Position numbers and translations under genes: made by a program. From Candidatus Methanoperedens sp. (lineage in GTDB: Archaea; Halobacteriota; Methanosarcinia; Methanosarcinales; Methanoperedenaceae): a stretch of 64,000 nucleotides of DNA. The notes below the pieces were generated by a model. It was not told the DNA's origin, did not search any database, and saw only the letters and a list, made by a program, of their open reading frames with translations. Shown piece after piece: positions 13,680 to 35,174 of this stretch. The DNA lies in assembly GCA_028715885.1 (NCBI GenBank), contig JAQUQX010000004.1, forward strand, positions 1 to 64,000, given 5' to 3'. Position 1 is the first letter of the stretch, and each line of letters starts with the position of its first letter.

Positions 13680-15146
13680 TCATGAATATTGCCCGCAAAC
13701 CCGGGCAAGCTTTTCTTTCGCTTTATTAATCTTTTTGTGAATAAGGTTAATCTCATTTCCGCTTTCCACCAGTTTTTTCTTGATTACTGCTATTTGCCGT
13801 TTTGTTTCTACGGGAGCGGGCCCTCCTGAGACGGTACGTTTTTTTATGTTTAGCATAGGGTCAAGAGCTTCTTTAACGGCTTTTTCAGAAAGTCCCCGGT
13901 CACTCAATTTTTCACCGAGGATTTTTAATGAAATCCCATTCAGCGCTGAAAGGGTCGGGGTTTTTCCTGTCTTTGCGATTGAGCCCACGATATGATGGGC
14001 GGTCCTGAAAGGTATGCCTGTTGCCCGGACAATAGTATCCGCAAGTTCGGTTGCGGTCATGAATCCCGTATCTGACGCAAGCCTCATCGTTTCCTTTTTG
14101 AGCTTCATCGTACTGACCATGCCCTGCGCCATACGCGTAGAAGCCCGTACGGCGTCGATAGCGCGCCATAGGTGGGGTGTAGCCTCCTGCAGGTCGCGGT
14201 TGTAGCTGTACGGAAGAGCCTTGCATATAGTTAAAACCGACATGAGTGCGCCGTGAACCGTTCCGGTTTTTGCGCGCAAAAGTTCCGCAATATCGGGATT
14301 TTTCTTTTGCGGCATTATGGATGACGTGGACGAATACCTGTCATCCAGTTCGATGAAACCGAATTCGGATGAACTCCACAGGATTAGCTCTTCTGCCATG
14401 CGGCTTAGGTCTGTCATTATATTGGCAAAGCAGCTTATGCTTTCAATCATGAAATCGCGCGTGCTCACCGCATCCATGGAATTCAAAAGCGCCGAGTCAA
14501 ATCCCAGAAGTTCCGTCGTCCTTTCCCTGTCTATCGGAAAGCCCGTAGATGCAAATGCAGCGGCGCCGAGTGGATTCCGGTTCGTGCGGTCGTAAGCTCC
14601 TTTTATCCGTTCGATGTCGCGCAAAAGCGCGTTTGCATGCGCCAGGAGATGATGAGCCAGCGTGGTGGGCTGGGCGTGCTGTGTGTGTGTGTATCCGGGC
14701 ATAATGGTTTCATGATGTTTTCCAGCAGATGCGAGAAGGGCTGAAACGAGGTCGTGCGTCTCTTCCATGAGAGTTATAAGTTCCCTGCGCAGCGTGAGGC
14801 GTATGCAAGTCGCAACTTCATCATTGCGCGAGCGCCCGGAATGCATCCTGCCGCCCGTGTCTTCCCCGGCAAGCTCTATAAGTCTTGCCTCAAGGGCGAT
14901 ATGGACGTCTTCGTATGAGGTATCGAGAGATGCAATGCCTTCATTTTGTATCTTACCAAGACCGCAAAGAATAGCCGAACAATCCTTAGCATTTATGATG
15001 CCCTGCTCTTTCAGCATGACAACATGGGCTCTATCCACCTCGATGTCAGCCTCGAATATGCGCTTATCCGCATCAAGAGATGAAGTGAAATTCATGATGT
15101 CTTCATCGGGTTGTATGGAAAGCCGCCCTCGTCTTAAGATATTCAT
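13680..15146 (-). CDS. argH: Argininosuccinate lyase
   Basis: ArgH splits argininosuccinate into arginine and fumarate. The 488-residue protein has the fumarase/aspartase-superfamily signature SSIMPQKKNPD near residue 275, plus HSGRSRNDEVATCIRLTLR near 102 and GYTHTQHAQPTTL near 150. It is cytoplasmic and homotetrameric. It is followed 14 bases later by the CorA-like gene. A duplicated hairpin-rich repeat lies directly upstream of the start codon, in the promoter region. Confidence 0.96.
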   Translation of the reverse strand: MNILRRGRLSIQPDEDIMNFTSSLDADKRIFEADIEVDRAHVVMLKEQGIINAKDCSAILCGLGKIQNEGIASLDTSYEDVHIALEARLIELAGEDTGGRMHSGRSRNDEVATCIRLTLRRELITLMEETHDLVSALLASAGKHHETIMPGYTHTQHAQPTTLAHHLLAHANALLRDIERIKGAYDRTNRNPLGAAAFASTGFPIDRERTTELLGFDSALLNSMDAVSTRDFMIESISCFANIMTDLSRMAEELILWSSSEFGFIELDDRYSSTSSIMPQKKNPDIAELLRAKTGTVHGALMSVLTICKALPYSYNRDLQEATPHLWRAIDAVRASTRMAQGMVSTMKLKKETMRLASDTGFMTATELADTIVRATGIPFRTAHHIVGSIAKTGKTPTLSALNGISLKILGEKLSDRGLSEKAVKEALDPMLNIKKRTVSGGPAPVETKRQIAVIKKKLVESGNEINLIHKKINKAKEKLARVCGQYS

Positions 15147-15148
15147 AA

Positions 15149-15302
15149 AGCGACACCTCGCTTTATGCGGTGTCCACGTATGGCTTCGCCATACGTGTTG
15201 TCTTTAATAAACTTTTCTAAAAGTTTAGCGACACCTCGCTTTATGCGGTATAGGGGTATGCGCAGCATACCCCTTCTTTTGATAAAACTTTCATAAAGTT
15301 TT
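15149..15302. repeat. Two-copy 78-bp hairpin repeat upstream of argH
   Basis: The 23-mer AGCGACACCTCGCTTTATGCGGT occurs at 15149-15171 and exactly again at 15227-15249; only its halves are quoted together here as AGCGACACC and TCGCTTTATGCGGT. Each copy is followed by a different strong hairpin (CACGTATGG/CCATACGTG at 15174-15197; AGGGGTATG/CATACCCCT around 15252-15275) and then by an AAACTTT/AAAGTTT inverted repeat. The order is conserved, so the unit has been duplicated while the hairpin arms diverged by compensating changes. Confidence 0.75.
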
Positions 15303-15396: not shown

Positions 15397-15909
15397 GTGT
15401 CATTACTAACACTTTTAATCACATGTTTTCTTGCGGGCTCACTGGTTAAACTGACCGATGACATCGAGGACAAAAACCTGCCCATCAACCGTCTTTTTGC
15501 CCTGCCGTTAGGGATTGCTTACGGGCTGCTGATGGGGTATTTGATGCTTGTGAATACCGATGCTTCACTTCTTTTCGGAGGGATTGTCATCGGATGCCTC
15601 ATAACAGGCAAGATAAACAGCATCGGGCATTATTTTGGTCTTTCCGCAATACTTGCCGTTGTTTTTCTATACGGGATAAAACTCTCCCCCCTGGTATTTC
15701 CGATTGCAGCCCTTGCAGCGCTTGACGAAATGAAAAGTATATTCCGGCTTTCCAGACTGAACATAGTATTTGATTACAGGTTAGTACTGAAACTCGGGAT
15801 ATTGCTGCTTGTTATCGTAAATATGCTGGGATTGAACGCTCTGCTCATCCTTATCGCATTTGATTCTGCTTACATCATAACCGGGCGAATAAATTCGAGG
15901 TTCTCATGA
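15397..15909 (+). CDS. Polytopic membrane protein of the lipid/archaeosortase operon
   Basis: A 170-residue protein with about six hydrophobic segments (for example LTLLITCFLAGSLVKL, LFGGIVIGCLITG, LSAILAVVFLYGI and LNALLILIAFDSAYIITG). It starts with GTG. Its stop overlaps the ATG of the geranylgeranyl-reductase-like gene in an ATGA arrangement, which points to translational coupling. No catalytic motif stands out. Its position at the head of an operon with a GGR-like reductase, archaeosortase A and archaetidylserine enzymes suggests a role in lipid or surface-anchor biology. Confidence 0.7.
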   Translation: MSLLTLLITCFLAGSLVKLTDDIEDKNLPINRLFALPLGIAYGLLMGYLMLVNTDASLLFGGIVIGCLITGKINSIGHYFGLSAILAVVFLYGIKLSPLVFPIAALAALDEMKSIFRLSRLNIVFDYRLVLKLGILLLVIVNMLGLNALLILIAFDSAYIITGRINSRFS

Positions 15910-16913
15910 AATACGATGTCGCGGTCATTGGCGCAGGACCTTCAGGCTCGTTTGCCGCGGAAAAACTCTCAGCCCTTGGCTTTAAAACGCTGGTAATAGA
16001 CCCGTGTGATAGAAAAAAAGTATGCGCTGGAATCCTTACAGCCCAGTATGTGAGAAAATATGGGATAAACGATTCGTTTGTGGAAAAGGAGTTAAAGGGA
16101 GTAAGAATCTCATATCACGATGTCGATGCGGAGATAACCTACAGGAATGCAGTCGAATATTCCATAAACCGCGCTTCTTATGATTCTCTTAACCTCAATT
16201 GTGCTGTTGGTGCAGGAAGTGAATTAATAAAAGACATGGCGCTATCGGTAAAAGAAAAAGATTCGTATGTAGAAATCAAAACAAAAAAAGCGGCTGTTCT
16301 TGCGGACTATGCGATTATCTCAGCCGGGGTATCAGACCTCAGCCGCTCCCTTGGCGGGGTGAAACTGTATGCATATTGTGTGCAGCAAAAGAAAGACCAG
16401 AAACCTGATGATTATTTTGAAATGGATTTGCTGACGGGCGGTTACTCATGGACCGTGCCTAAAAAAGACCATGTGGTGGTTGGAACATCGTCGCTTACAG
16501 GTTACCCGGATATCCCCGGGGAAAAGGGACTGATACCAGTTAATGGTCCTGTTAAAAACACTTTTTCCAGAAGAACGCTGCTGGCAGGCGATGCTGCCGG
16601 ATTCGTATCCCCGTTTGAAGGCGAGGGGATATATTATGCGAGGCGTTCAGGAGAAATAGCTGCAGAGGTATTATCCGATGTGCTCTCAGGTAAGAATAAA
16701 TTGAACGATTATGAAAAACGCTGGAAAAAGGAATTCGATTTTTCAACTCTGAATAAGCTTTCCACGTTATTATCAAACAGCATGGTTTTGGAAGCGTTTG
16801 TACGTGAAATCAGGGACAATGAGAGATTTAATAAACTTGTAGAGGATATTCTGACAAAAGAAAATAAGTTTCAGGTAAAAGATATAGCCTCATTGATTAA
16901 AACACTGGTTTAG
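15906..16913 (+). CDS. Geranylgeranyl-reductase-family flavoprotein
   Basis: The 335-residue product is an FAD-dependent GGR-like enzyme. It starts with the dinucleotide-binding motif YDVAVIGAGPSGSFAAEKL, has a second FAD motif (TLLAGDAAGFVSPFEGEGI near 222-240) and a CAG motif at KVCAGILTAQY near residue 39. The family saturates prenyl chains of archaeal lipids. It is shorter than the main archaeal GGR, so the substrate may differ. The gene overlaps its upstream neighbour by 4 bases and abuts artA. Its place with ArtA and archaetidylserine enzymes suggests it makes or trims a lipid used in surface-protein anchoring (inference). Confidence 0.87.
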   Translation: MKYDVAVIGAGPSGSFAAEKLSALGFKTLVIDPCDRKKVCAGILTAQYVRKYGINDSFVEKELKGVRISYHDVDAEITYRNAVEYSINRASYDSLNLNCAVGAGSELIKDMALSVKEKDSYVEIKTKKAAVLADYAIISAGVSDLSRSLGGVKLYAYCVQQKKDQKPDDYFEMDLLTGGYSWTVPKKDHVVVGTSSLTGYPDIPGEKGLIPVNGPVKNTFSRRTLLAGDAAGFVSPFEGEGIYYARRSGEIAAEVLSDVLSGKNKLNDYEKRWKKEFDFSTLNKLSTLLSNSMVLEAFVREIRDNERFNKLVEDILTKENKFQVKDIASLIKTLV

Positions 16914-16922
16914 TTGATCCAA

Positions 16923-17735
16923 ATGATAGAAAACATTATCTGGCTGGCGCTTGGAATGCTTGTTATAGCCTCCGTTTTGCCGCAGAGCAATTATAAACTG
17001 ACGCTCGCCGGCGGCGGATGGATGTTTTTTTCAGTGCACTGGGCTTTACAGTGGCGGCATTATTTTGAGCTTGGGGATTATCTCAATGTGCTTTTAACAG
17101 TGCTCGCTGCGGTATTCAGCGTTTTTATTGGTTTTGTACTGATACGACAGGACAAGCTCCTTATGAAGAACATTAACGGCGTTAGCACCATAACCTCAAT
17201 TACCATGGCTACGACCGCATCTGCTGTAGGCGGACTCTCATATTTTATATTTTCAGAAATCCCTGCCATGAATACGTGGCTAATTTCAACAGTGACCGAC
17301 CAGACCATCTGGCTTGCATCGGTTTTTAGCGTGGCGATTACAAGACTGGACTGGAATATTATCGCGGTAAACGGTTATAAAGTCGAGATAATACTTGCAT
17401 GCACAGCAATTGAAAGCATAGCATTATTCATAGGGATTATCGCAAGCGTCAACGCCCCATTTAAACGACTGGCTCCGGCGTTTCTTGTCTCGGTTCCCGT
17501 AATATACGGCTTGAATCTTATCAGAAACGTTTTTGTGATTGATGCCTATGGAATGACATGGTTTGGCGACCCTGAAATGAGTTTTTATATCGCACATACG
17601 GTTATTGCAAAGATTGGCTCGCTTGCCGCGTTATTCGTAATCGCGTATGCAGTGTTAAAAATACTTCCTGAGATTATCGATATGATTGACGGGATTTTGA
17701 ACCTTGTTGGAGGCATTTTCAGGCATGCTGGCTAA
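16923..17735 (+). CDS. artA: Archaeosortase A
   Basis: ArtA is a polytopic membrane transpeptidase-like enzyme that processes PGF-CTERM proteins and is required for their lipid attachment. About eight hydrophobic segments are present. The catalytic Cys lies in EIILACTAIESIALF, the Arg in GLNLIRNVFVI, and the third conserved region in FYIAHTVIAKIGS. The ATG at 16923 is preferred over a TTG at 16914. The gene overlaps the archaetidylserine decarboxylase downstream. At least one PGF-CTERM protein (33912-35174) and two cytochromes with related tails lie in this window. Confidence 0.93.
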   Translation: MIENIIWLALGMLVIASVLPQSNYKLTLAGGGWMFFSVHWALQWRHYFELGDYLNVLLTVLAAVFSVFIGFVLIRQDKLLMKNINGVSTITSITMATTASAVGGLSYFIFSEIPAMNTWLISTVTDQTIWLASVFSVAITRLDWNIIAVNGYKVEIILACTAIESIALFIGIIASVNAPFKRLAPAFLVSVPVIYGLNLIRNVFVIDAYGMTWFGDPEMSFYIAHTVIAKIGSLAALFVIAYAVLKILPEIIDMIDGILNLVGGIFRHAG

Positions 17736-18366
17736 AGGTTCATTCTCATGGATTGCTGGAATGCTGCTGTTCACCATTTTGACAGGTTATATTTCAAAAG
17801 ACCGCTCAGGGCTTGTTTTTGTGACTTTTTTTATTTTATCCATTATAGGAAGCCTTTTGACTCTGTTTTTTTTCATATTCTTCAGAGACCCCGAACGCTC
17901 ACCCCGCGGGGACGAGGACGATGCTGTCTCGCCTGCTGACGGCAGGGTGATTTCCATAAAAGACAGGACTATATGCATTTTCATGAACATCCATGATGTC
18001 CATGTGAACCGCGCTCCTCTTGCAGGCATGGTTACGCGTATCGATTATAAACCCGGCGGTTACATACCTGCGTTTAATAAGGATTCGGATGTAAACGAGA
18101 GAAACCATGTCGTGATAAATACGGATTCGGGAATTCTTGAATTAACCCAGATTGCCGGCGTCCTGACCCGGCGCATCGTCTCGTATATCAGCATGGGCAG
18201 CCATGTGAAGAGGGGAGAACGCATTGGGATGATTCGTTTTGGTTCGCGTGTGGATGTGATAGTGCCGGATGGGTATGAGTTTGCAGTCCGGGTGAATGAC
18301 ATGGTGAAGGCAGGGGAGACCATAATCGCAAAAAAGACCCCGTATTTAAATACGGGGATTACGTAA
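17725..18366 (+). CDS. pssD: Archaetidylserine decarboxylase (PssD/Psd family)
   Basis: The enzyme converts archaetidylserine to archaetidylethanolamine using a pyruvoyl group made by self-cleavage. Two N-terminal membrane helices are followed by FFRDPERSPRG, SPADGRV, MNIHDVHVNRAPLAG, ELTQIAGVLTRRI and the self-cleavage segment IRFGSRVDV, with Ser as the future pyruvoyl residue. The ATG at 17725 overlaps artA by 11 bases; a TTG at 17704 is possible. The last ten codons lie in a 20-bp palindrome shared with dapA's 3' end. In Haloferax, PssA and PssD are needed for ArtA substrate anchoring. Confidence 0.93.
   Translation: MLAKGSFSWIAGMLLFTILTGYISKDRSGLVFVTFFILSIIGSLLTLFFFIFFRDPERSPRGDEDDAVSPADGRVISIKDRTICIFMNIHDVHVNRAPLAGMVTRIDYKPGGYIPAFNKDSDVNERNHVVINTDSGILELTQIAGVLTRRIVSYISMGSHVKRGERIGMIRFGSRVDVIVPDGYEFAVRVNDMVKAGETIIAKKTPYLNTGIT
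18338..18357. repeat. 20-bp palindrome, copy 2
   Basis: CCCCGTATTTAAATACGGGG, identical to 6176-6195, lies wholly inside the coding end of the archaetidylserine decarboxylase gene, where it encodes part of the tail TPYLNTG. Both copies are at gene 3' ends in the same orientation relative to the gene. Confidence 0.8.
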
Positions 18367-18370
18367 GGAG

Positions 18371-19060
18371 ATGAAAATGGGAGACAGTATCCTGAAACTT
18401 ATCAAGCCGGCAGATGTTATTACGCTTGTCAATGCGCTTCTCGGGTTTGCCTCGATAATAATGACAATCCGGGGAGAAACGGAAAGCGCGCTTGTGCTGA
18501 TTCTCATTGCAGTGATAGCTGACGGCGCTGACGGCGCGGTGGCGCGTTATTCGGGAACCGGGGTTCTTGGCGCTAATCTTGATTCGCTTTCGGATGTGAT
18601 TTCTTTTGGAGTCGCGCCTGCCGCTTTGGCATTTGTTTTCCTTATCAATCTGGGATTTCTTGCATGGATATTTTCAGGTCTTTTCCTTGTTTGCGGCATA
18701 CTGCGCCTTGCCAGGTTCAACGCGGCGGGAAAAAAGGACGGTTTTGAGGGGATTCCCATAACAGCCGGAGGTCTTGTTGTGGCTTTGTTCCTGCTGGTCA
18801 AAGAGCCTGTCCCGTATTTTGATTATACGTTTGCGGCTCTTCTCGTTATATTATCTTTTCTGATGGTAAGCACGATAAGTTACCCAAAATTGAACCAGCC
18901 TGTTATTCTTGCACCAATGGCGCTTGTTCTTGTTTTTGACATTGTTGTTTTTTACCTGGGGTATCCTGATATGGTAAAAAAAGCGTCATTGCTTCTGCTG
19001 CTCATGATTTTTATATACGTCCTGAGCCCGCTTGGAAGGAGAGTTTATGGAAATCAATAA
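18371..19060 (+). CDS. pssA: Archaetidylserine synthase (CDP-alcohol phosphatidyltransferase)
   Basis: A membrane enzyme of 229 residues with the CDP-alcohol phosphotransferase motif in DGADGAVARYSGTGVLG followed by NLDSLSDVISFG, i.e. D-G-x2-A-R-x8-G-x3-D-x3-D. In archaea this family joins L-serine to CDP-archaeol. About seven hydrophobic segments are present. It starts 4 bases after the decarboxylase that uses its product and behind an AAGGAGATG ribosome site, and it overlaps mptD. The synthase assignment rests on the operon with the decarboxylase. Confidence 0.92.
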   Translation: MKMGDSILKLIKPADVITLVNALLGFASIIMTIRGETESALVLILIAVIADGADGAVARYSGTGVLGANLDSLSDVISFGVAPAALAFVFLINLGFLAWIFSGLFLVCGILRLARFNAAGKKDGFEGIPITAGGLVVALFLLVKEPVPYFDYTFAALLVILSFLMVSTISYPKLNQPVILAPMALVLVFDIVVFYLGYPDMVKKASLLLLLMIFIYVLSPLGRRVYGNQ

Positions 19061-19400
19061 CCGTGACAGGGCTGTGTTTGAGGCTGGCATCAAGCTGGGC
19101 GCGCTGTACCACCAGTTCGTGGGAACGCCTATAAATGAAAACACTGTTGACGGTCTTGAAAGAATTATTGAGGAGAGCATCGGAGTCCAGCCGTTTGTCC
19201 GAAGCGTGAGCGTCTCCATTGACCGCGAGATGGTCGGGAGAAAGCAAAACCCGAAGTTCAAATACTGCGAGCTTGAAGGGCGCATGCTGCATGTGAGTTT
19301 GCAGGTGCTTTATAAAAATATCATAGCGACGGTGGAGCTGGCGTATGATGAGGAACAGGATTACCCGTTGATGAGTATTAAGATGATTGGAGAGATGTGA
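19047..19400 (+). CDS. mptD: Archaeal dihydroneopterin aldolase MptD
   Basis: MptD makes hydroxymethyl-dihydropterin on the route to methanopterin/sarcinapterin, the C1 carrier of methane metabolism. The 117-residue product matches the family (PF04038): RDRAVFEAGIKLGALYHQFV, GTPINENTVDGLERIIEES and the C-terminal TVELAYDEEQDYPLMSIKMI. The ATG at 19047 sits behind AAGGAGAG and overlaps the 3' end of pssA by 14 bases. It is probably the last gene of the lipid operon. Confidence 0.92.
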   Translation: MEINNRDRAVFEAGIKLGALYHQFVGTPINENTVDGLERIIEESIGVQPFVRSVSVSIDREMVGRKQNPKFKYCELEGRMLHVSLQVLYKNIIATVELAYDEEQDYPLMSIKMIGEM

Positions 19401-21829: not shown

Positions 21830-22825
21830 TTATTTTTTCTTTCCTGCCTGTTTAGCGTATTCCTGCCACTGGTCTCCTCCGGTAATTACGGGAAGACCGC
21901 TTAAAGGCGCATGAGGATTGGTATGGCAATCTTTACATCCTGCCACATAACCGTGACAACTGGAGCATCTGCTTCCAGAATGAAAGGGACCATGTGGTAC
22001 ATGGCAGTCCATACACGATTTTGCTTTTTTGTGTTGTGGATGGCAGTTGGTACAGGAGGGTACATTTTTATTATGTTTGCTGTCATATATCGTTAATGTC
22101 TGGTAAACCCTGTTGTGACAGACAGAACACATTTCTTTTGTAATAGCGCCTTTGAAAACACTGTCTTTGACCGGAAGATGCGGGTCATTATGGCACCCCA
22201 GGCAAACACTCCTGTCCCACTGTGCGCCTTTTTGATGAGGCGTATGGCATTTGGTGCACTGGGGCAATTCATCCAACCGTGTGACATCAGTGCCGTGGCA
22301 GTCACTGCAGGTTCTGTTTCGATGCCCTCCTTCTCCAATACGTTTCCAGAAACTTACTTCTTGTTTTGGCGGTTCTTTATGAAAAATATGGCATTTTTCA
22401 CAGTTAGAAGCATTGGAATGATTTAGCGTTTGTATTTTTATTTTTTTTATATCATGGCATTTGGTACAGTTAGCTGTGAGGATTGAAAATTCTGATACAT
22501 TCAAGCTTGTATTGTAACTGGTGTTAGATGCGAATAATTTGTTAATTACTGGATATGTTTTATTTAAAATTATGAAATCCAAAACAATCCTTTTTGCTGC
22601 CAGATTTCCCTGCAAGCCCTGTTGTGAGTGGCATTCGATGCAGGTGATGTTGTTTTCTTTATGGGCGGGAAGGACTGAATTGTTGCCGGGTGCAAGGTAG
22701 TTCTTATACTCGGTTGCATGGCAGCCGGCACACAAAAGCGGGTCGTTTATACTGCGAAGTATTGCGGAGGAGGCGTACGCTGAGAGCGCAATGAGCAAGA
22801 ATGCCAGTATTAGCCATTTTTTCAT
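21830..22825 (-). CDS. Dodecaheme c-type cytochrome
   Basis: A secreted 331-residue cytochrome. A signal peptide (MKKWLILAFLLIALSAYASS) is followed by 12 CXXCH heme-binding motifs, beginning CAGCH and CIECH and ending CSSCH and CKDCH. The spacing is tight in the second half, with many extra His residues for bis-His ligation (for example HKAKSCMDCHVPH). There is no C-terminal anchor: the tail is hydrophilic and Lys-rich. It may carry electrons outside the membrane. It is divergent from the tetraheme cytochrome gene at 23038, with a shared 210-base promoter region, so the two may be co-regulated. Confidence 0.93.
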   Translation of the reverse strand: MKKWLILAFLLIALSAYASSAILRSINDPLLCAGCHATEYKNYLAPGNNSVLPAHKENNITCIECHSQQGLQGNLAAKRIVLDFIILNKTYPVINKLFASNTSYNTSLNVSEFSILTANCTKCHDIKKIKIQTLNHSNASNCEKCHIFHKEPPKQEVSFWKRIGEGGHRNRTCSDCHGTDVTRLDELPQCTKCHTPHQKGAQWDRSVCLGCHNDPHLPVKDSVFKGAITKEMCSVCHNRVYQTLTIYDSKHNKNVPSCTNCHPQHKKAKSCMDCHVPHGPFHSGSRCSSCHGYVAGCKDCHTNPHAPLSGLPVITGGDQWQEYAKQAGKKK

Positions 22826-23013: not shown

Positions 23014-23037
23014 TGGATAGGAAAAGAGGTGAATAAA

Positions 23038-23679
23038 ATGAACAACAAAATACTATTGTTAGCAATCGCAGTGATATCAGTGGGTCTATTTGCAATGCCG
23101 AGCACACTGTCTTTGTTCGCAGGGCAGCACACGTTCTATAATGGTAGTCAGGTGAACTGTAACAAGTGCCATCAGGATATTTATAATGAAATGACTTCTG
23201 CTGGCGTAAGTACAGCACACAGAACTACGGCTTTGCAGGCATGCCAAGGTTGCCACCTTACAGGCAATATATCTCAGGTGCCTTTTAACGCGACTAGTAA
23301 CATGTCATGGTACAATAATAGCATCGCAGGCAATCCTAATGCCCATGCAGCAATAACTCTGGAATGCGTAGCATGTCATCAGGGTGTTCCCGCAGAGTTT
23401 AACAATACGGCAGAAGCCCATGTGCCATTCTACCTGAACTCTTCGTATACTATAAATACTTCCGCCGGGTTAAATGCAGTAAACCAGACTGTAATTCAGT
23501 TGAATGGTGCAAACACTGCTTGCGTAGGATGCCATACCCACATTGCTATGAATGTTACATGGATAAGGACGAAAGGCTATAGCATCGTGGCAAATGAAAC
23601 CACTGGCAGCTACAGCATAACATACAGTACCAACACTACAGCAAACAATCTACAGATTAACTACTCAGCCGGGTCGTAA
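23038..23679 (+). CDS. Tetraheme c-type cytochrome, secreted
   Basis: The 213-residue product has a signal peptide (KILLLAIAVISVGLFAMPS) and four CXXCH motifs (CNKCH, CQGCH, CVACH, CVGCH). It is unusually rich in Asn and Thr with many N-x-S/T sequons, typical of glycosylated archaeal surface proteins. The C-terminus has neither a membrane helix nor a PGF motif. The ATG at 23038 follows AAGAGGTGA by 5 bases. It stands alone, ended by a hairpin-T terminator and divergent from the 12-heme cytochrome. It is probably part of an extracellular electron-transfer chain. Confidence 0.92.
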   Translation: MNNKILLLAIAVISVGLFAMPSTLSLFAGQHTFYNGSQVNCNKCHQDIYNEMTSAGVSTAHRTTALQACQGCHLTGNISQVPFNATSNMSWYNNSIAGNPNAHAAITLECVACHQGVPAEFNNTAEAHVPFYLNSSYTINTSAGLNAVNQTVIQLNGANTACVGCHTHIAMNVTWIRTKGYSIVANETTGSYSITYSTNTTANNLQINYSAGS

Positions 23680-33795: not shown

Positions 33796-33912
33796 ATGAA
33801 TCGATTAAAAACAATACAAATTTTGATTCTGGCAGGCGTACAGCCTGCGGTACAGCCGACTGCAACAGTGCAGCCCAAAAAATCTCTGGAAAAATATGGG
33901 GGTAAAGAATAA
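33796..33912 (+). pseudogene. Truncated pstS 5' copy acting as a leader ORF
   Basis: This 38-codon frame begins MNRLKTIQILILAGV, like PstS (MNRLKIILILVLAGV), then jumps to the PstS linker (QPTATVQP) and ends KSLEKYGGKE. The lipobox Cys has been deleted, so it cannot be a lipoprotein. About 130 bp, from element C through the signal sequence, match the pstS upstream region at 35312-35444. Its stop TAA overlaps the ATG of the S-layer gene by one base (TAATG), so it now acts as a coupled leader for that gene. Confidence 0.8.
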
Positions 33913-35174
33913 TGTGTAAAAAAATAACAGCAGTTGCATTAGTAACGTTAATGCTATTAGCAGCTTTACCCGCAAATGCAGCTATACAAGCAACAAAAGT
34001 GGAAATTCGAGGAGCGACAGCGAGCACGATAGAAAAAACGATTCCGTCTGGCGGCTTTAACCTGACCAACATTGTCAATGCACCGGTTAACTGGACGCCA
34101 CAGGGCTTTGCAGGTTTCTACTACGACCTGAAAGACGAGCTGGGCAGAGAGGAATTGGAGATACTCCAGACAGACCTATCAAAGAATCAGAGAGCTGTTG
34201 GAGAAAATAACTTAGTTTACAGAACTACTGCCCAGAAAAAGAAGCTGAAGGTTGTAAACGATGGGTTTAATGGTAGTGCAAGTGCGGCAACAGAAGCAGG
34301 TCTGGAGAAAGTAGGAAGTGCGTTTACCAGCAGCGGTGAATACCTCATCATGGGTTGGCAGGGAGAGAAATATATAGCCGTGAACAACAAGATTGATATA
34401 ATCAGCAAGCTTCTCTTTGAGCATGGAGCCACTGCTAATGAGAAGAAAACCTTAGCTGTAGGAGAGAAGTGGGATATAGGCGATGGCTGGGAACTCATTG
34501 CCCAGAGCATAGACGCTAAAGCATCACCAAGACAGGTATGGCTCACGTTGAGCTATAAGGGACAGAAGCTTGATGATAAAGTAGTCGCCCAGGGTAAAAT
34601 ATACACTTACGTTGAGAAGAGTATCGCAGAGGAGAGCGATGTGCCCATGTTCGTGACCAAGGTTGATAGCGTATTCGCAGGCGCAGATGGCGACATGGCT
34701 CAGTTAAGATTTACATGGGTGGTCTCTCGCAATGTAACAAAAATCAAGTCAGGAGAAACGATTGGAGCATTCAAAGTCAAGGACATAAACCAAACAGGTC
34801 TGCGTCTGGAACTTAAAAACGAGAAAATAATAACTCTTGACCAGAATGCGGTTATTGATCTAATTGGCAATATTAAATTAAAGGTGGCGGATAAAGCAGA
34901 TGTGCTCAGGCTCTACCCCAAGGTCGACTACGAGATGGCAAGCGCAAAACCAGCCACAACATCAACTATAACACCAATTGCAACGCCAACCATAATAGAA
35001 ACTGTAGCAACCAAAGCATTATCCATAACACCAACTATAACATCAACACCAGCGATTAACACTCCTGCACCGCCTGAGCCTCGTGTAACGTCGACTCTCG
35101 AAATGCCGGGATTTGAGGCTGTGTTCGCAATTTCAGGCTTGCTTGCGGTGGCATACCTTGTGCTGAGAAAGTAA
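33912..35174 (+). CDS. S-layer-family protein with PGF-CTERM anchor
   Basis: A surface protein of 420 residues: signal peptide (KITAVALVTLMLLAALPANA), an S-layer-duplication domain like those of Methanosarcina S-layer proteins (VNWTPQGFAGFYYDLKDELG, SSGEYLIMGWQGEKYIAV, WDIGDGWELIAQSIDAK), a Thr/Pro-rich stalk (about 340-395) and a C-terminal PGF-CTERM segment, EMPGFEAVFAISGLLAVAYL followed by basic VLRK. It should be processed by archaeosortase A. The gene is coupled to the truncated pstS leader and lies under Pho-like element C, so it may be a phosphate-controlled S-layer variant. An 8-bp hairpin terminator follows. Confidence 0.9.
   Translation: MCKKITAVALVTLMLLAALPANAAIQATKVEIRGATASTIEKTIPSGGFNLTNIVNAPVNWTPQGFAGFYYDLKDELGREELEILQTDLSKNQRAVGENNLVYRTTAQKKKLKVVNDGFNGSASAATEAGLEKVGSAFTSSGEYLIMGWQGEKYIAVNNKIDIISKLLFEHGATANEKKTLAVGEKWDIGDGWELIAQSIDAKASPRQVWLTLSYKGQKLDDKVVAQGKIYTYVEKSIAEESDVPMFVTKVDSVFAGADGDMAQLRFTWVVSRNVTKIKSGETIGAFKVKDINQTGLRLELKNEKIITLDQNAVIDLIGNIKLKVADKADVLRLYPKVDYEMASAKPATTSTITPIATPTIIETVATKALSITPTITSTPAINTPAPPEPRVTSTLEMPGFEAVFAISGLLAVAYLVLRK

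Follow-up and report, generated by a model that had tools for sequence, protein, structure and literature searches.

The locus analysed here, in a window of 64,000 nucleotides (positions 1 to 64,000 of contig JAQUQX010000004.1, Candidatus Methanoperedens sp.), is best read as a known protein-anchoring cluster, artA-pssD-pssA, preceded in one genus by an optional and mobile two-gene module for lipid tailoring; we give this reading a probability of about 0.68. Clustering of the trio was already known. What is new is the pair upstream, which consists of a membrane protein of 170 residues (M170) and a short geranylgeranyl-reductase-like protein (GGR-short), together with the M170 family itself, which is undescribed. 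The features of the window that concern us are the following:

13680 to 15146, minus strand: argH, argininosuccinate lyase (TIGR00838, 562.9 bits), divergent from M170
15150 to 15275, no strand assigned: dispersed palindromic repeat between argH and M170, with two units at a distance of 78 bp
15397 to 15909, plus strand: M170, membrane protein of 170 aa (18-sequence alignment and AF2 prediction)
15906 to 16913, plus strand: GGR-short, FAD-dependent geranylgeranyl-reductase-like protein of 335 aa (TIGR02032, 142 bits)
16914 (TTG) or 16923 (ATG) to 17735, plus strand: artA, archaeosortase A (TIGR04125)
17725 (ATG) to 18366, plus strand: pssD, archaetidylserine decarboxylase homologue (PF02666, 2.4e-39; NF003685)
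18371 to 19060, plus strand: pssA, archaetidylserine synthase homologue (TIGR00473, 133 bits; TIGR04217, 183.7 bits)
19047 to 19400, plus strand: mptD-type archaeal dihydroneopterin aldolase, pterin synthesis (PF04038, 1.8e-42)
33912 to 35174, plus strand: secreted protein with a C-terminal PGF-CTERM signal (PF18204, 9.4e-11 at 35103-35171), probable ArtA substrate

The five open reading frames from M170 to pssA were confirmed at 15397-19060, all on the plus strand, and neighbouring genes either overlap or are spaced by less than 10 bases. The initial annotation had described artA as overlapping pssD, with pssA next, and a GGR-like gene and a polytopic protein gene as coupled upstream. Both descriptions were borne out by ORF and family searches: artA and pssD overlap by 11 bases, M170 and GGR-short by 4 (ATGA), and GGR-short abuts artA. 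A sixth gene that had escaped mention, mptD, starts inside pssA and is the last of the run. Given the gene overlaps, M170 to pssA would be expected to form one transcript. A scan of the locus for bacterial-type promoters returned matches no commoner than chance. The 261-nt intergenic region between argH and M170 has a fold with a z-score of -7.4, and the repeat within it was found in 19 copies (at most 2 mismatches) in its own genome versus 0 for a reversed-pattern control. This repeat is REP-like, several of its copies are tandem pairs 75-78 bp apart, and it is also present in related genomes.

Identification of the trio relied on curated family models. ArtA scored 241.9 bits against TIGR04125 over residues 9-267 (cut-off 75); the active-site residues C163 and R204, in the numbering of this ArtA, are kept by 97% or more of 48 archaeosortase rows, in which the ACTAIES motif is also conserved. 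PssD exceeded the cut-off of the PSD family model NF003685 (246 bits against 183) and stayed below that of the protein-sorting model NF038088 (173 bits against 240); the pyruvoyl-site motif GMIRFGSR(V/A)D, containing the RFGS Gly-Ser site, occurs in 34/34 copies. PssA passed TIGR00473 (cut-off 107) and reached neither of two narrower models, TIGR04217 (183.7 of 200 bits) and NF038086 (93.6 of 200), and the CDP-alcohol phosphotransferase motif DGxxAR...G...D...D is present in all 33 copies. The three genes are contiguous at 23/23 named Methanoperedens loci and in 33 of the 34 genomes of the family (Methanoperedenaceae), the exception being G026, where pssA would lie past the contig end; the trio also recurs at most of the other artA loci inspected within the order. 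mptD follows pssA at 22 of the 23 named loci, and a contig end cuts the remaining one. The gene order at the locus is far beyond chance.

Clustering of artA, pssA and pssD has been published for Methanosarcina, and in Haloferax volcanii both ArtA-dependent processing and lipid labelling need PssA and PssD (Abdul-Halim et al. 2020, PMC7157517); what the initial annotation said of this requirement for lipid anchoring in Haloferax agrees with that work. The families found here are the same three as in both systems, contiguous as in Methanosarcina, and PGF-CTERM substrates are likewise present in this genome and window. The locus differs in what surrounds the trio, with M170 and GGR-short upstream, in part of one genus, and mptD downstream. 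The genome itself holds 19 PGF-CTERM matches at E<=1, the best of which (9.4e-11) falls inside the window, in the product of 33912-35174; this protein of about 420 aa ends in MPGFEAVFAISGLLAVAYLVLRK and is encoded about 16 kb from artA. Two ORFs with CxxCH motifs of the multihaem type were also seen near the operon, on opposite strands (21830-22825 and 23029-23679). Small multihaem cytochromes bearing PGF-CTERM motifs have been reported from methane-oxidising archaea (PMC9012536).

To follow the two upstream genes, their distribution was scored across the family and beyond. M170 and GGR-short form a strict pair: of the 33 family genomes that could be scored, 18 have both and 15 have neither, some absence calls coming from incomplete MAGs (in G008, G020 and G025 artA lies at the edge of its contig), and the two genes are adjacent in every genome carrying both. 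The pair lies directly upstream of artA in 13/34 family genomes; in two more, G017 and G018, it is split by contig ends in an order that fits artA linkage, and these were counted as probably linked. The tie of the GGR-like and 170-residue genes to artA therefore extends to other genomes, and conservation of the full five-gene order, which the initial annotation had in view, proved partial: the trio is kept across family and order, whereas linkage of the pair to artA is limited to one genus. Three family genomes (G009, G013, G030) carry a whole copy of the pair at a site apart from artA, and G023 has an M170 fragment only, at a contig edge and also away from artA. Outside the family the pair is adjacent in 5 genomes from three other families of the order, never beside artA, and most genomes of the class that have artA lack it. 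A break in the GGR gene of G011 (locus L004) was considered as an insertion and rejected, since a run of N marks it as a gap in the scaffold.

Genomes without the pair retain the anchoring genes. They keep artA-pssD-pssA, and in several of them (G002, G014, G021, G022, G026 and G031) argH directly abuts artA, an arrangement seen at loci L016 and L018-L021. Seven genomes of the genus that are at least 90% complete have no copy of the pair anywhere. Within the genus, among genomes at least 90% complete, the median number of PGF-CTERM matches was 15 with the pair and 16 without (P=0.97; counts at E<=1, some chance matches included). Since pairless genomes combine an intact trio with equal PGF-CTERM counts, the pair is accessory; on the best reading it is optional for ArtA anchoring, which would not depend on the module.

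The history of the pair was compared with that of the artA operon. In the artA-operon tree, genomes with a linked pair, with an unlinked pair and with none are mixed among one another, close sister genomes differ in the pair (G027/G002 and G018/G014), and each of the two main clades of the genus has members in which the pair is linked to artA. In the pair tree, one clade (100/100) unites the three whole copies that are unlinked. The artA-operon data reject a clade of the three unlinked hosts (p-AU 2.6e-124); placing G013 and G030 with G004, G006 and G024, as the artA operon does, is in turn rejected by the pair data (p-AU 1.8e-100). Both values are optimistic, as the clades were picked after the trees had been seen, but the gaps in log-likelihood (135 and 166) are large. 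The pair has moved on its own, apart from artA, and its history is separate and horizontally mixed.

GGR-short scored 142.3 bits against TIGR02032, below the curated cut-off of 158.8, and we therefore call it GGR-like and place it outside the curated family. The motifs GAGPxG (FAD-binding), C40 (Cys40-Ala-Gly), YSWxxPK and a GDAAGxVSPFxGEG-type motif are present in 15/15 copies, and the best solved relative is 3oz2, a digeranylgeranylglycerophospholipid reductase. Archaeal GGRs (PDB 3oz2; TIGR02032) share FAD-binding and GGR motifs with GGR-short, which is shorter (335-345 aa against about 390-450), forms its own clade (support 100/99) and has M170, not a ferredoxin gene, as partner. Elsewhere in the same genome, a 392-aa GGR gene overlaps a 66-aa ferredoxin gene, and this ferredoxin-linked enzyme, not GGR-short, is likely the bulk archaeol reductase. 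The same gene arrangement is reported for the GGR of Methanosarcina acetivorans (cited in PMC9385802); there a GGR-family enzyme is likewise coupled to a small partner gene, the partner being a soluble ferredoxin whereas that of GGR-short is a polytopic membrane protein. No link between a GGR and an archaeosortase locus was found in the literature searched.

M170 had no significant match in Pfam, NCBIfam or PDB sequences. Its alignment (18 sequences) contains 43 invariant columns, with the invariant patterns K..DD..D, K, DE, R...K and D..Y, and residues G14, K18, D21, D25, K72, D110, E111, R128, K132, D156 and Y159 are kept down to 22-25% identity, in homologues from another class of the phylum. 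The AF2 model (pLDDT 88) has seven short helices, with a predicted N-out/C-in topology and a charge bias of 11 versus 1 K+R; most of the invariant polar residues and the C-terminus would lie on the side that bears the positive charges and is predicted to face the cytosol. Among membrane lipid enzymes, the protein was compared with UbiA, CDP-alcohol transferases, CarS and MraY. Its best structural matches score no better than unrelated helical bundles, from which a new fold does not follow; hits to holin, aquaporin and NCX were rejected as chance level, and an assignment to UbiA through a DDxxD-like motif was dropped, since neither sequence nor fold supports it. M170 represents an undescribed and deeply conserved family of membrane proteins with active-site-like residues. 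Its distant homologues (L105-L108, L137-L147) are about 200 aa long and carry the motifs G.GLK(Y/F)IDD.FDE and DE.GNDY; many have a FilR1-type regulator upstream and a convergent gene for a KaiC-domain protein of roughly 1000 aa. A candidate conserved operon of distant M170 and GGR in another lineage (f11) was rejected, as the nearby GGR genes are on the opposite strand, behind a KaiC-domain gene, and a FilR1-type regulator is encoded upstream.

Going by family membership and by the anchoring model of PMC7157517, which is itself partly speculative, PssA would make archaetidylserine from CDP-archaeol and serine, PssD would decarboxylate it to archaetidylethanolamine, and ArtA would cleave PGF-CTERM proteins and transfer them to archaetidylethanolamine. 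GGR-short would be a flavin-dependent enzyme that reduces double bonds in the isoprenoid chains of a special lipid substrate. M170 would be its obligate membrane partner and may bind or process the polar head of the substrate at the cytosolic face, through the invariant acidic and basic cluster. The relationship to GGR points to an isoprenoid lipid as the target, and the module would thus tune a membrane isoprenoid lipid; placed under the artA promoter, it may draw on the pool of CDP-archaeol and archaetidylethanolamine. That the module touches the ArtA anchor lipid is possible. An enzymatic role for M170 is guesswork, because its fold has no convincing relative.

The partnership might instead be structural, with M170 serving as a non-enzymatic membrane anchor or stabiliser of GGR-short. 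Strict co-occurrence and adjacency of the two fit such a role, as does the absence of a recognised catalytic fold in M170. However, eleven residues, nearly all polar, that stay invariant at about 22% identity form the pattern of an active site, and distant M170 homologues exist without an adjacent co-oriented GGR; we consider a purely structural role doubtful. It is unlikely that the module works on a different isoprenoid, for instance the side chain of menaquinone or a carrier of the dolichol type, and sits beside artA incidentally. Relatives of GGR do act on quinones (GGR-short scores 49 bits against the NCBIfam MenJ model), other GGR-like genes of this genome are fused to UbiE-type methyltransferases, and unlinked copies of the pair adjoin nitrogenase-like, Hdr-like and other unrelated genes; but no quinone-biosynthesis gene lies beside any annotated copy, and artA linkage in both main genus clades exceeds what an incidental position would lead one to expect.

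Shared operon membership is weak evidence for a shared function here, because mptD, a pterin gene, is a more constant neighbour of artA than the pair is. Nearly all genomes with M170-type genes also have artA, and a looser functional tie of the pair to surface anchoring is conceivable; this co-occurrence is uninformative, as artA is almost universal in the class. The initial annotation had proposed the GGR-like enzyme and the 170-residue protein as candidates for missing parts of the attachment pathway. In such a role they would be dedicated to ArtA lipid attachment and would saturate or present the anchor lipid. In its favour, the pair is tightly coupled to artA in 13 genomes (with 2 more split across contigs), the overlaps lead one to expect co-expression with the trio, and the chemistry fits, archaetidylethanolamine needing saturated isoprenoid chains. 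This proposal is nonetheless improbable, as the pair is missing from many genomes whose trio is intact and whose substrate load is the same, most genomes of the class with artA are without it, whole copies lie away from artA in 8 others (3 of the family and 5 of other families) and its history is independent of artA.

Lastly, it is improbable that M170 belongs to a new class of enzymes of membrane lipids and, with GGR-short, makes a chemically distinct isoprenoid lipid that serves as the ArtA anchor in some Methanoperedens; if it did, the lipid borne by surface proteins and by multihaem cytochromes would differ between strains with and without the pair. Comparing genomes that have the module with those that lack it bears on the chemistry of the ArtA lipid anchor. 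Close relatives with and without the pair (for example G027/G002 and G018/G014) offer a natural comparison for effects on the anchor or on membrane lipids.

The same genome carries a second archaeosortase gene, artA2, whose product is 52% identical to ArtA (G000:C1:122313-123074; L045 9808-10608). It lies in a cluster that comprises FtsX/MacB-type permeases, an ABC ATPase, a 121-aa protein, artA2, a ThiS-like protein of 97 aa and a DUF63 membrane protein, without pssA or pssD. The cluster is also found in a relative (L062), and the order artA2-ThiS-DUF63 in a third genome (L064). Two genes of about 610 aa, each a fusion of a GGR-like protein with a UbiE-type methyltransferase, flank the cluster (L045 2061-3896 and 14001-15827), and their domain composition suggests quinone-like or other isoprenoid chemistry.
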